Shown piece by piece: positions 18,435-29,969 of a stretch of DNA of 37,329 nt. The DNA comes from a virus. The stretch is taken from IMG/VR virus record IMGVR_UViG_3300020474_000044, positions 1-37,329 of that record, one strand, 5' to 3'. The notes beneath the pieces were generated by a model that had not been told where the DNA came from, searched no databases, and saw only the letters and a list, made by a program, of their open reading frames with translations. Position 1 is the first letter of the stretch. Each line of letters starts with the position of its first letter. A program made the translations under genes and the position numbers.

Positions 18435-18863
18435 CTACACAATGGAAGCATACAGTTTACATGAATTATTTCGTCCTACCATTTCATAATCCACTTTCAA
18501 CTTCAATCCACCCTCTACCATGTGCGAAATACCATCATCATTTAAAAATTCATCATATGGTGTTTCACCATCTTTACCAAATCTTCCGCCCATCTTATTA
18601 AGTTGAAGTTCAAATGAACCACTTTGTTCACTCATACTTGGTGCTGTTTCCATACCAATTCCAACAGCTGCTAATCTATTTCTTAAAGTATTAAGAGCAT
18701 GTTCTGGTAAAATAAATTCTTGATTTCCTATCAATCCAACAAATGCATTAAGTTTTTTTACGACTTCTGGATTTCCTAGTTCGGCAGGGTTAATATCTAA
18801 ATCCACAGCGACATTATGTTGTCCACCATGCATTTCTTTTATGTGTTGTTTAAAACTTTTCAT
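18435..18863 (-). CDS. Conserved late protein with capsid-targeting-like N-terminus
   Basis: The 142-aa product starts MKSFKQHIKE, very like the T4 capsid-targeting sequence MKTYQEFIAE carried by internal head proteins. The rest is mixed alpha/beta (VAVDLDINPAELGNPEVV; later SGSFELQLNKMGGRFGKDGE) and not recognised by function. A cut after IKE would fit the T4 prohead protease pattern (L/I)xE. AAGG precedes the ATG, which overlaps the TAA of the metallothionein-like gene. It may be packaged in the head, as an inference from the N-terminus. Confidence 0.65.
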   Translation of the reverse strand: MKSFKQHIKEMHGGQHNVAVDLDINPAELGNPEVVKKLNAFVGLIGNQEFILPEHALNTLRNRLAAVGIGMETAPSMSEQSGSFELQLNKMGGRFGKDGETPYDEFLNDDGISHMVEGGLKLKVDYEMVGRNNSCKLYASIV

Positions 18864-18991
18864 TAGCTACAACCTTCGCAGTTACAGTTTTCGTCACATT
18901 GACCTTTGCAAGCACATGAACTGTCGCACCCACAATCATAATTGGAATCATCTGAACCATCGTATATTTCTTTCAATTCTTGTCGTTCCAT
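18863..18991 (-). CDS. 42-aa metallothionein-like Cys-rich peptide
   Basis: This short gene has a strong AAGGAG ribosome binding site (18998-19003, 6 nt before ATG). The last 23 residues hold eight cysteines at 20, 22, 26, 28, 32, 36, 38 and 41, spaced as CxC-x3-CxC-x3-C-x3-CxC-x2-C with no other bulky residues. That is a metallothionein-like metal-binding pattern, as in CDSSCACKGQC and CNCEGC. The first 19 residues are charged (MERQELKEIYDGSDDSNYD). Zinc or copper binding or redox buffering is likely. A virion role is possible, since the flanking genes are late. It overlaps the next ATG by one base (TAATG). Confidence 0.75.
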   Translation of the reverse strand: MERQELKEIYDGSDDSNYDCGCDSSCACKGQCDENCNCEGCS

Positions 18992-19011
18992 TTTTGACTC
19001 CTTAATAGTAT

Positions 19012-26176: not shown

Positions 26177-28725
26177 TAACCTTTCATCAAGTCTGTTACA
26201 GATTTGGTACTCCAAAACTTACACGACCAATATTTTGCTTTCCATTTAGGCCCAGGATCTTTATCACAACCATGTCTTGCTCTAAATGCTTTTCTTCTTT
26301 CTGGGTCATCTCTTTTGATAGACATATTAGGGTCACCAAATTCGACTTTAACTACGTTACCTTTGTCATTCTTGACGTAAACTTTATATTTTTTAACATC
26401 ACCCTTTGTAGGATTATTTAGTTTTTTTCCTTCGGCATCTTCTTCAACTTCACCCCAATCATTCATTTTTTTAAATTCTGTAAATGATGCGGCAAGTTTT
26501 CTTATTGCCTTTTTTCTTGAATATGAGGTTTGTCCAGCTTTACCCTTTTTAGGAATTAATAAGTTGGGTAATTTTTTATCTTTCTTTAGAGTTGTTCTTT
26601 CATCGACAGCAGTTTCCTCTGGTACACAATTAGGCACTTCTCTTCCATTCTTCATTTTCATACCAACTTGTTTGTAACCACTCCAACATGGGCCTGATTC
26701 AGATTTTAATGATTCTTCATCAAATCCATCAACCTCGGCACAATCATCACAACACCCAACCTTTTCAAGCATTGTATCGTGAACTTCATTTAATTTCCAC
26801 CACCAATCAGCACCATATTTTAGTTCATAGTTTGCACGAACAGCTTGATTTTCAAACCATTCATTAACTTGGCCTGGCGTTACTTTCTTAGTATGATTTG
26901 TATACTCATCTGTACCTATCTCATATGATTCTTTTTTCTTTGCCTTATGTGGTTTTGCCTGTTTTTGTAAATCTGGATCTGCTTTACCACCAGTTAACAT
27001 TGAGTTCACTCTTGCAAACGCCCATTGTTGTTGTGAAGCGCCTGGGCGATGTCCACCCTTCCATGCAGCCATTCCTCTGTCATATGACTTTTTAAGAATA
27101 CCATATGGAACACCAGTTTGTTTTGACTTCGTTACAAGTCCAGCAATTTTTTCGTCTAGTTGGACAGACTCTACATAAGGTTTTTGTTTCACGCCTCTCT
27201 CCTTTTCAACATCTTTATTTGCTTTATCAAGTATCTGATCTGTATCATAACTAGGATTAAATTCTATAGGTTTTGTTGGATCACCAACTACCCACCCCTT
27301 TTCCTTTGACTTTTTACTATCTACTTGGCCTGGATAATGTGTAAAATCTTCATTCTTATCTAGATATGCAGCGATTGCCATATCTTTTCTTTTCTCTTTT
27401 GACTTACCTTTAAACTGTGGGGCATCAGACTTTTGGAAGTCGTCAATATAATCTCCCATGTCTGCATCTTTACCAAGTATTTCTCCATACATCTGTTTAT
27501 ATTTCTTGGTGTATTGTGATGGTTTAGTAGTTGCACCTTTATCGCCAGGCGCTTTATCTCTAGAACCACCCTTTGCAAAATGTCTTGCACGAGCAATCTT
27601 TGTAGATTTAGACATTTCATCACCCTCTGTATCTTTAGAATAATACTTAGCAGGCTGTGTTCCTTTTACATCTGCAACATCACCTTTTGCTTGTTTTGTC
27701 TTTGTAATCTTTTTAGGTTCTTCTCTTAGTCTTGGTTCTCTTCTATTCTTAGATGGATCTTCCATTTTTAAATTACTAGGGTCATTATTAAGTGGGTTAT
27801 TATCTCTGTGTCCAACATCTAAACCTTGAACTGCTTTATCACCCATAATTCTACGAGCCTGATTTCTAGAAGAACGTCTTGCAATTTGTTCTGGTGTACC
27901 TTGATAGTTATCGTATTCTTTTCTATAGTTTCTAACTTCTGTTAACCATGCCTTGTGAACTTTGCCAGATGAGTCATTAAATGATATATAATTAGTTCCT
28001 CTTGAAATAATTTTACCATCAATACCATTTGCACTAATCATTTCTCCAACTAACCAGATTTTTCCAGTAAGATACTTATCTCTTAGAGTTTCATAGTCAT
28101 CCATGTCACCCATGTCTTTTTCTTCTCTGATACCCATATATTTACGAACATCATTAAATAACTTTCTTGCAGTTGTTTCATCAGAAGCAACTCCTTGTTT
28201 GAAGATATCAAAACTGTTTGCAGTTGCAGCAGCTCTCATCTTCGATGCCGACATACCTTCAACACCCTCTGCATCTGGGTCTCTTTCTCCAGCAGAAATA
28301 ACTCTGATTTCATCGAAACCATAATAACCGTGTTTTTTACCCTCTACACCATTATACTGGTTTAATAGTCTTTCAAACTCTTTTACTCTATCAGAACCAG
28401 CAATCATAGTGATTGACTTATATCCTTGTCCATGTAATCTAACAGCAATGTCAAACACATTTCTTATTTTAGTGTCTGCGATAATGTTTCTAGAATGTTT
28501 CTTAAATATCTTTCTCATGTATGCGACTTTTAGAGCATACGGTAAAGGGTCTTTAGCAGGACTTTGGGATTGTGAAGCAAAGATAGAATAATCTTTAGAA
28601 CCAGAAGAGGTTTTTGCAACCTTCATGATTAGTTTTTCATGTCCAATTGTTGGTGGATTAAACCTACCGAAAGTGAACGTATGATTAAACTTAGCTTCGT
28701 TAAGTATTTGTTTAAATTTTTTCAT
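26176..28725 (-). CDS. Multidomain HIGH-type nucleotidyltransferase/HNH-like virion protein
   Basis: The 849-aa product begins [11 protein letters not shown], close to the T4 capsid-targeting peptide, with LNE|A fitting the prohead protease rule. A cytidylyltransferase-like domain follows ([14 protein letters not shown] with the HIGH-like motif at residues 26-29; SASKMR at 159-164). Next is a [20 protein letters not shown] segment typical of HNH homing-type nucleases (about 301-320). Further domains of unknown function include [18 protein letters not shown] (548-565), [18 protein letters not shown] (678-695) and a C-terminal [12 protein letters not shown]...YWSCKFW. LDE (523-525) and LNE (645-647) lie between blocks. 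It is probably a capsid-associated polyprotein. Confidence 0.75.
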
Positions 28726-29969
28726 TTATCCCATGCCTTTATAGCGGTAAAGTTGTTAAACGAGAACTCCATTCTGTCTACTAATTTAACTGCATTTCCA
28801 CTAACTCTATCAATCGCAACATACCCCTCTGGGTTAGTTACTTTAAATCCATTACTAGTCTTAATAAAGGTGCTTGTCAATCCCTTTACACTATTTAGTT
28901 TATTTACGATTTCTGCTTTAGCATCAACTAAATAGTTTTGAAACTCTAGAGTTAAGGTTAATACGTTTGTAAATTTCTTGACTTCTCGTACATATTCTTT
29001 TTGTAAATTCTTATATTTTTGTTTACCAGCAACCGATTTTACTTTATCAATATTCTTTTGTAAAGCCATCTCTACATGTTTAGCATATCCCATTGCATGT
29101 TGTCTAGGATTTGTTATTGTCTGTCCAGCCCTAACTTTAGTATTATTATATGTTTTTAACCCAGCACTAGCAAGTTGTCCAGTAAATACTTCTTGTAGTT
29201 TTAAAAAAGATCTTAATTGATTTGCATTAATTTTTTGAAAAGTCTTTCCAGTTTTTGAGAGTAAATCTGTAACTTTTGCAGTTTCTTTTGCATTAAATGT
29301 CGCACTTCCAGACACATCTTTGTAAGTTGCATCGTCCATCCAGATAGATGCTGGTTTACTTAAACTTGATATGTTTGCACCAAATGATGCTTTCATTGAT
29401 TGTAAATCACTTCCAGTGTACGTTGTATGCCAAACCACACCAATCTTTGCTTTGTTTATTGTATTTCCCAATTCACTATTAATAGGTATAGCGTAAACAA
29501 TAGTATTGGGCTGAAAAGTATAGTATTTTTCACCATCAATTGTTTCGGTGTCAACGTCATCGGTAAACATAAGGTCTCCTTGTAGAACACCTTTAATACC
29601 CAATTTGGAAAATTCTGTAAATGCAATTTTAAATTTAGAATTAAGAGAGCCAGATAGGTTGTCATCATCTATTTCCTTTATTGATTTGTATAGTTTAGGT
29701 TCAGCATTAAATACAGACTTCTTTGCAACAAAGAACTTATTATCAGAAGGGTCGATGCCAGAAAAGATTGCAGGCGCACCATCCCACTTAACAGTCATTG
29801 AAATAGATGAACGAGAGTTACCAGCAAGCATATCTCTTAATGAACGTAGGAAGTTAATTGCAGCTCTACCACCGTCAACTCCGTAGTTGAGAATTTCATC
29901 CTCTAAATGTTCTAGGTGTAAATTTTTACCACCCTTATCTTCTGTAAGTAATTGACTAAATGATTTCAT
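28722..29969 (-). CDS. Ligase-fold nucleotidyltransferase-like late protein
   Basis: The 415-aa product starts MKSFSQLLTED, a capsid-targeting-like peptide. It then has MTVKWDGAPAIFSGIDP with a KxDG motif (K61-G64), as in ATP-dependent DNA/RNA ligases and capping enzymes, and a later GVLQGDLMF resembling downstream ligase motifs. I recall a conserved T4-like marine phage family with this layout and no known function. Covalent nucleotidyl transfer is a prediction from the motif only. Its start overlaps the 36-aa gene as ATGA and its stop overlaps the 849-aa gene as ATGA. Confidence 0.65.
   Translation of the reverse strand: MKSFSQLLTEDKGGKNLHLEHLEDEILNYGVDGGRAAINFLRSLRDMLAGNSRSSISMTVKWDGAPAIFSGIDPSDNKFFVAKKSVFNAEPKLYKSIKEIDDDNLSGSLNSKFKIAFTEFSKLGIKGVLQGDLMFTDDVDTETIDGEKYYTFQPNTIVYAIPINSELGNTINKAKIGVVWHTTYTGSDLQSMKASFGANISSLSKPASIWMDDATYKDVSGSATFNAKETAKVTDLLSKTGKTFQKINANQLRSFLKLQEVFTGQLASAGLKTYNNTKVRAGQTITNPRQHAMGYAKHVEMALQKNIDKVKSVAGKQKYKNLQKEYVREVKKFTNVLTLTLEFQNYLVDAKAEIVNKLNSVKGLTSTFIKTSNGFKVTNPEGYVAIDRVSGNAVKLVDRMEFSFNNFTAIKAWDK

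Follow-up and report, generated by a model that had tools for sequence, protein, structure and literature searches.

Three proteins encoded in a virus fragment of 37,329 bases (IMG/VR record IMGVR_UViG_3300020474_000044, positions 1 to 37,329; this whole stretch is referred to as the window) carry N-termini of the T4 capsid-targeting type, with an aromatic residue at position 4, usually a hydrophobic residue at 7, L or I at 8 and E at 10. The capsid-targeting sequence is T4 textbook matter, and such N-termini suggest, with a probability that we put at about 0.78, that the three proteins are packaged into the phage head, cut and ejected. Packaging had been proposed in the original prediction, made from the DNA letters alone, and it has good support from the residue pattern, from the spread of the pattern over unrelated proteins and from virion proteomics of relatives. 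For the window phage itself we infer packaging, cutting and ejection, with delivery into the host argued from T4, and a cut after E10 is likely. Like many of its relatives, the phage puts the tag on unrelated enzymes, which probably ride inside the virus and enter the host with its DNA. By analogy with T4, the tag would direct the freshly synthesised late proteins to the prohead core, and a gp21-type protease of the phage would then cut after E10. After trimming, the nucleotidyltransferase with its small modules, the ligase-like DUF6267 protein and a third protein of 142 amino acids (aa) would remain with the DNA and reach the next host together with it.

N-terminal tags in the window and in related phages

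The window is kin to Kyanoviridae, and the genes of the tagged proteins all lie on its minus strand. Their open reading frames (ORFs) encode an 849-aa protein (26176-28725), a 415-aa protein (28722-29969; N-terminus MKSFSQLLTED) and the 142-aa protein (18435-18863; N-terminus MKSFKQHIKEM), and the T4-like N-termini that had been claimed for the three are indeed present. The 415-aa protein is 70% identical to its counterpart in Methylophilales phage Melnitz, 46% to that in C48C1 and 42% to that in HTVC008M; the 849-aa protein shows 82% identity to a protein of G001, a 148-kb contig that was the closest long relative used. The 142-aa protein has no match in Pfam, PHROG or NCBIfam and has homologues in Melnitz and HTVC008M.

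Among the 103 window ORFs of at least 60 aa, with any start allowed, the pattern M[KR].[FYLIWM]...[LIVM].E matched only these three proteins. We further built a position-specific scoring matrix (PSSM) of 9 columns from the N-termini of T4 internal proteins (IPs) and of tagged proteins of cyanophage S-CREM2, using no window sequence; 8 bits served as the threshold for a tag match, and shuffled N-termini gave the chance level. In a hand-picked set of 50 non-overlapping window ORFs, the first three ranks were taken by the 415-aa protein (tag at 29940-29969, 13.1 bits), the 849-aa protein (residues 1-10 at 28696-28725, 8.9 bits) and the 142-aa protein (tag at 18834-18863, 7.3 bits), all on the minus strand. 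The fourth was a 170-aa deoxyribonucleotidase-like protein (21398-21910, minus strand; phrog_2643, E = 5e-24) with the degenerate tag MRTLSELMTA, which has no E10; it scores 4.4 bits, versus 8.2 for its G001 counterpart (MKTLSELMTA). Shuffled window N-termini gave a mean of 0.07 ORFs and a maximum of 2 at or above 8 bits. The N-termini therefore reflect more than chance.

The key residues are F4, I7, L8 and E10 in the 849-aa protein, F4, L7, L8 and E10 in the 415-aa protein and F4, H7, I8 and E10 in the 142-aa protein. The last misses the looser form of a T4-based rule (see below) that the other two pass; its homologues begin with MKSFKSFVKE, MKNFSKFITE or MKNFKNHIAE, and that of HTVC008M with MKSFKDFQNV. 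As described in a T4 review (PMC9026906; here and below, cited papers are drawn on for the available parts of their texts), the first 10 residues suffice as the tag in T4, residues 4 and 7 serve targeting, residues 8 and 10 permit processing, and the gp21 cleavage motif is L/I-x-E. A or G after E is therefore not required. An E10D change is reported to inhibit processing, with targeting still possible. The narrower form (L/I)xE|(A/G) assumed at the outset fits the 849-aa protein (LNE|A, residues 8-10) but not the 415-aa protein (MKSFSQLLTE|D) or the 142-aa protein (MKSFKQHIKE|M).

All of 20 sequences of DUF6267, the family of the 415-aa protein, have F4 and E10. Position 8 is occupied by L (18 sequences) or I (2) and position 11 by D (18) or S (2); at residues 2, 5, 6, 7 and 9 the variation is strong (entropy 1.8-2.8 bits). 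The codons for F4, L8 and E10 vary across 31 DUF6267 genes, and this synonymous variation indicates that the peptide is what is kept. For the 849-aa protein, F4 is likewise invariant in an alignment of 26 sequences, and residues 1-10 of its model have a predicted local distance difference test score (pLDDT) below 50. Conservation among relatives of the first 10 residues, and of LxE sites near domain borders, had been proposed as a check; it was found at F4 and E10 of DUF6267 and at an LDE near the border of the DUF5824 module described below, and not at residues 2, 5-7 and 9.

Tag matches occur in relatives as well. ORFs scoring at least 8 bits numbered 5 of 194 in G001, 5 of 209 in Melnitz, 6 of 197 in C48C1, 3 of 251 in S-SM2, 1 of 192 in HTVC008M, 1 of 229 in DLP6 and, in two further contigs, 3 of 81 (G002) and 2 of 86 (G007); the shuffled means for these eight were 0.06-0.25. 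A wider scan, with one extra offset, gave 1 of 223 in S-SM1, 2 of 214 in Syn9, 5 of 396 in KVP40 and 6 of 334 in P-SSM2 (shuffled means 0.29-0.55). A few matches in other genomes appear spurious. A set of 155 related viral-contig loci contained 1429 ORFs, of which 113 reached 8 bits (shuffled mean 4.15, maximum 7 in 20 runs). Because these loci had been fetched via two tagged proteins, we removed the ORFs homologous to either query, 68 of 324 of which score at least 8 bits; 38 of 905 distinct ORFs still did so (shuffled mean 1.66, maximum 5 in 50 runs). For a pooled set of these loci, S-CREM2 and eight full genomes or contigs, the protein bodies, from residue 15 onward, were clustered by single linkage. 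The tagged bodies fell into 27 clusters, of which 4 are S-CREM2 training proteins and some with a single member are perhaps due to chance. Since many unrelated bodies share the tag, it can be regarded as a module. A chance origin of the tag was ruled out by shuffled N-termini in the window, in the related loci and in the query-free ORF set.

Other N-termini deserve mention. Beyond its three IP genes, T4 (NC_000866) has a 54-aa ORF at 18966-19130 (minus strand) that begins with MKTFKEFIKED, near the IP tag. Tagged proteins of KVP40, a T4-like phage of Vibrio, are encoded at 37733-39834, 58233-59687 and 156073-157191, and one of them is PARP-like, below the Pfam cut-off; T4 Alt, which is packaged too, is an ADP-ribosyltransferase (PMC9026906). 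A protein of the S-adenosylmethionine (SAM) lyase family in P-SSM2 (99763-100272) has the partial tag MRTFQEFLQL, without E10. A second common N-terminal pattern, exemplified by MTRYTKTMAEAYREV and SKTFNSLSEAYAAV, occurs on multi-block proteins and is possibly another targeting tag. Its carriers are found in HTVC008M (109429), Melnitz (15879), G007 (14206-15771) and locus L105, and as S-SCSM1 gp89, which is labelled as a virion protein.

Virion proteins, the head protease and rival explanations

Mass spectrometry of S-CREM2 virions detected 52 of 219 proteins (PMC10665884). Those with the tag are gp6 (SAM hydrolase/lyase, MKDFDSFLEE), gp13 (MKDLHSFLTE), gp14 (kinase, MKRFDAFLTE), gp136 (MQTFSMFFSE) and gp154 (cytidylyltransferase, MKNFSSFLTE|A). 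A similar peptide is present at residues 18-25 of gp12, a CRISPR-Cas9 nuclease according to its authors, and the tag was not found in the two endolysins of these virions. Employing a rule taken from T4 mutational data, in a strict and a looser form, we compared detected and undetected proteins of S-CREM2. Under the strict rule, 3 of 52 detected proteins were tagged versus 0 of 167 undetected ones (Fisher P = 0.013); under the looser rule, the figures were 5 of 52 and 1 of 167 (P = 0.003). The T4-GC190 cytidylyltransferase of S-SM1 was also detected in virions (PMC3037559), and a 387-aa ORF of S-SM1 with a nucleotidyltransferase motif starts with MKKFSAFLNEA. In S-SCSM1, the virion nucleotidyltransferase gp91 is tagged. 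Two relatives of the DUF6267 protein that lack the tag, S-CREM2 gp87 and S-SCSM1 gp257, provide natural control cases, and both are absent from the virion lists.

The S77 prohead protease was found in 6 of 6 full phage records, T4 included, and in 5 of 6 records of a second set, with S-CBWM1 as the only one without an S77 match. It was also present in 3 of 7 viral contigs, among them the close relative G001. In the N-terminal region of gp23, [LIM]-x-E (LTE, LSE, LGE, MTE or IAE) lies near the expected cut in all 11 genomes and contigs shown, namely G001, G002, G007, Melnitz, HTVC008M, C48C1, S-SM2, DLP6, S-SM1, Syn9 and T4.

Several points weigh against packaging of the window proteins. The S77 protease was not found within the 37-kb fragment, and the virion data come from relatives, not from the window phage. 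The looser tag rule was set after the S-CREM2 hits were known. In S-SCSM1, for which GenBank labels 48 of 282 proteins as virion proteins and the paper gives 45, the association of tag and virion was not significant under either form of the rule (looser, 1 of 48 versus 2 of 234, P = 0.43; strict, 1 virion protein versus 0 others, P = 0.17), and the best tag match of this phage, gp30, carries no virion label. The authors of both virion-proteome papers, in the available parts of their texts, allow that the enzymes are leftovers of high expression. T4 and S-CREM2 have 5 of 267 and 5 of 219 ORFs at or above 8 bits, and the top matches are largely training peptides of the PSSM; the high scores of the T4 internal proteins and of S-CREM2 are thus circular and provide no test. 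In the window, H7 of the 142-aa protein is atypical, and LTE|D and IKE|M deviate from E|A/G. Residues 12 and 14-20 of DUF6267 are invariant as well, so conservation alone cannot single out the tag. Finally, the tags of HTVC008M homologues are weak or lost (MYNDLLVED, MKTLKELLRKK, MKSFKDFQNVNE).

The tagged proteins might instead be helpers of the head core or scaffold, like T4 gp67 and gp68, which are destroyed or expelled after assembly and not delivered. T4 core proteins are likewise cut by gp21, into fragments (PMC9026906), and in a Pfam scan of 20 tagged proteins, 9 were without a match at E 0.01. However, several bodies can be recognised as enzymes (SAM lyase, nucleotidyltransferase, RimK-type ATP-grasp and zeta-toxin-like kinase), and tagged proteins were detected in purified S-CREM2 virions. 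We consider a core-helper role unlikely. It is also quite improbable that detection in cyanophage virions was due to contamination by abundant proteins and that the motif has a different role, such as scaffold binding without packaging. The leftover protein allowed for by the proteomics authors would fit such an explanation; the over-representation of tagged proteins in S-CREM2 virions, though not significant in S-SCSM1, and the lack of both untagged DUF6267 relatives in the two virion lists speak against it.

A further explanation is that the N-termini reflect a DNA or RNA element, such as an initiation region, or the recent duplication of 5' ends, and not a peptide signal. The 849-aa gene does overlap the 415-aa gene, whose last bases contain its start, and the first codons of the tagged genes are alike. 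Against this, codons at F4, L8 and E10 vary synonymously in the 31 DUF6267 genes, the residues between the key positions vary, and a similar pattern is seen in T4 and KVP40; such an origin appears very improbable. Packaging by means of a peptide tag remains the preferred explanation.

Domains of the predicted cargo and putative internal cleavage sites

Behind the tag, the 849-aa protein has a nucleotidyltransferase domain of cytidylyltransferase/NMNAT-like type (residues ~11-264; 27934-28695, on the minus strand, as are the features of the 849-, 415- and 529-aa proteins given below). It was matched by phrog_3041 (cytidyltransferase, E = 1.7e-69) and phrog_395 (E = 6e-67); Pfam CTP_transf_like gave 17.9 bits, below the 21-bit cut-off, and NCBIfam was below its cut-off too. 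An HNH-like segment (residues ~294-344; 27694-27846) has weak matches to phrog_7545 (HNH, E = 4e-4) and, below the cut-off, to Pfam HNH_3 (E = 0.01). There follow a DUF5824 module (residues 533-584; 26974-27129; PF19141, E = 1.5e-17) and a DUF5754 module (residues 777-818; 26272-26397; PF19058, 17.7 bits, below the 27.4 cut-off). By BLAST, the latter shows 65% identity to a free-standing gene of C48C1, and it is preceded by [IV][TE]E in many relatives. The model of the 849-aa protein has a mean pLDDT of 60.

The 415-aa protein had been called ligase-like. Its Pfam family is DUF6267 (residues 16-410; 28740-29924; PF19782, E = 3e-103), and the likeness to ligases has weak support from fold and motifs. 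K61, D63, G64, E381, G382, V384 and K395 are invariant in 18 sequences, and we take these KxDG and EG-V / K motifs to be those of ATP-dependent ligases. The model is of low confidence (mean pLDDT 62). In a second look, its residues 64-216 aligned best with RNA or DNA ligases (12 of the top 15 rows), and the top Z was 6.4, for RNA editing ligase 1, in a range (Z below 8) where, according to the tool, a match may reflect a common arrangement. Foldseek with the DUF6267 model gave nothing at E 0.001, and hhalign of DUF6267 against T4 RnlB gave no match. A comparison of DUF6267 with sequences of solved structures returned only two apolipophorin chains (E 0.03-0.05), which were taken as chance. Elsewhere, the tag is carried by SAM lyase, RimK-type ATP-grasp ligases, a zeta-toxin-like kinase and a cREC receiver-like protein. 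PADLOC, run on six proteins, found no defence-system match.

The original prediction had also placed LDE, LNE and IDE sites between blocks of the 849-aa protein and of a '527-aa' protein. Such sites are present in both; LDE|A and IDE|G both belong to the second, which has 529 aa when counted from the first ATG (22448-24037). This multi-block protein has no clear N-terminal tag and no family match in Pfam, PHROG or NCBIfam. Its sites are LDE 151-153 (followed by N), LDE 278-280 (A), LDE 343-345 (M) and IDE 411-413 (G), and the IDE|G (22799-22807) stands immediately before the SRAQQAAIAISKK block. The 849-aa protein has LDE|K at 523-525 (27151-27159), a putative cut site before DUF5824, and LNE|V at 645-647. 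Internal cutting at L/I-[DN]-E between modules is possible, not established. The multidomain proteins would then be polyproteins, from which the head protease would free small proteins in the capsid. This would add to packaging by the tag and not oppose it, and we hold it conceivable but doubtful.

The motif [LI][DN]E is in excess in both proteins (849 aa, 3 versus 0.58 expected, P = 0.019; 529 aa, 4 versus 0.60, P = 0.004), and the reversed motif occurs in neither; the other 48 window ORFs, pooled, have 22 versus 13.7 expected. A set of 28 non-redundant multidomain proteins shows a sixfold enrichment of [LI][DN]E (114 versus 19.3 expected), with the reversed motif at expectation (20 versus 20.0); strict [LI]xE[AG] occurs 66 times versus 22.4 in the same set, and its reversed form 35 times versus 22.7. 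The enrichment of [LI][DN]E in other proteins of at least 300 aa is 1.64-fold. Of 26 aligned sequences, at least 90% keep E525, and LDE 523-525 closes a low-confidence segment of the model (residues 510-525) directly before DUF5824. Two of the related loci (L204 and L208) have a free-standing DUF5824 gene with the tag at its start and LEE or LDE at the same junction.

Other results speak against polyproteins. No excess of strict [LI]xE[AG] was seen in the 849-aa protein (1 versus 0.65 expected), in the 529-aa protein (2 versus 0.51, a count matched by 9% of shuffles) or in all 50 window ORFs (15 versus 13.9). A predicted helix encloses LNE 645-647, and K is the commonest residue after [LI][DN]E (96 of 336), ahead of V (40) and A (33). 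Pooled cyanophage virion proteins show no [LI][DN]E enrichment (0.91 and 1.07). Sites shared by homologues do not count independently, and capping of a domain helix could be all that L[DN]E does. As a control, [LI]xE was counted in two T4 proteins, with 16 versus 5.8 expected in gp22 and no excess in gp67 (3 versus 2.4); gp22 is cut into fragments, and gp67 is cut as well (PMC9026906). With a conserved L[DN]E before DUF5824 on one side and a site within a helix on the other, the proposal of polyproteins that the head protease cuts is no more than suggestive. A wider proposal appears rather unlikely to us: abundant marine T4-like phages would have a large, exchangeable set of capsid-tagged enzymes acting on nucleotides, DNA and SAM, and some of these, in lineages that infect heterotrophs, would be polyproteins that turn one gene into several enzymes at infection.

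A separate observation concerns a 717-aa protein (24062-26215), in which a lysine- and glutamate-rich half with 6 [LI][DN]E versus 1.08 expected is joined to a tail-fibre-like half.

Late-promoter motifs, possible roles and known systems

The T4-type late-promoter motif ATAAATA occurs 10 times on the coding (minus) strand of the window and 0 times on the plus strand. Six of the 10 are followed by a start after 13-35 bp, versus 5% for random positions (P = 2.6e-6). These six (TATAAATA, minus strand) are at 6421-6427, 12994-13000, 20127-20133, 21389-21395, 24051-24057 and 31221-31227, the last standing ahead of the gene run for a 374-aa protein, the DUF6267 protein and the 849-aa protein. The total is below the shuffled mean of 22; the signal is thus in the placement of the motif, not in its count. 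A simple sigma-70 scan showed no excess. The 374-aa protein (30076-31200, minus strand; phrog_2496) contains a GDIFIEF...VSLKAG stretch, which presumably resembles the PD-(D/E)xK nuclease motif.

The predicted cargo (SAM lyase, nucleotidyltransferases, ligase-like protein and ATP-grasp) could weaken the defences of the host, or reset metabolism, ahead of any phage gene expression. In particular, an injected SAM lyase of the S-CREM2 gp6 type, if its function is as predicted, could counter restriction. The available parts of the cyanophage papers leave undecided whether virion enzymes are cargo or leftovers, and the shared tag offers a mechanism. As a sequence rule, the tag would predict head-loaded proteins in marine T4-like phages, which is testable in existing raw mass-spectrometry data.

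The T4 review suggests that T4-like phages may load varied proteins via the targeting sequence (PMC9026906), and a paper on head proteins of phage P1 uses the term 'capsid targeting sequence' (PMC9024508). In the literature searched, with subscription papers largely outside the search, we found no paper applying the tag to marine or cyanophage enzymes; 'capsid targeting' together with 'cyanophage' occurred only in the T4 review, so that the cyanophage virion papers do not treat the tag by this name, and the available parts of PMC2984593 and PMC5694885 contained nothing closer on tagged marine enzymes. What is new here is the T4 tag on new cargo and in a new lineage; the tag itself is already known.

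Among the closest known systems is that of T4 IPI, IPII, IPIII and Alt (PMC9026906), which have a 10-residue tag with an aromatic residue at 4, a hydrophobic residue at 7, L or I at 8 and E at 10. As with the T4 internal proteins, the tag is common to unrelated proteins, and the protease, in relatives, is of the same S77 type. Unlike those proteins, the cargo is of other kinds and mostly larger (the multidomain nucleotidyltransferase and DUF6267), the phages are marine and of Kyanoviridae type, the residue after E is often not A or G, and there may be internal sites. The T4-GC190 cytidylyltransferase/NMNAT proteins of S-SM1, S-SCSM1 and S-CREM2 (PMC3037559, PMC9602691, PMC10665884) are of the same family as the nucleotidyltransferase of the window, are tagged and were detected in virions by mass spectrometry, but these cyanophage proteins are shorter (286-409 aa) than the 849-aa protein. 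The ejection proteins of the giant phage SPN3US, likened here by description only, are internal head proteins with propeptides removed by the prohead protease, and their propeptides are longer, several with more than 100 residues (PMC5694885).

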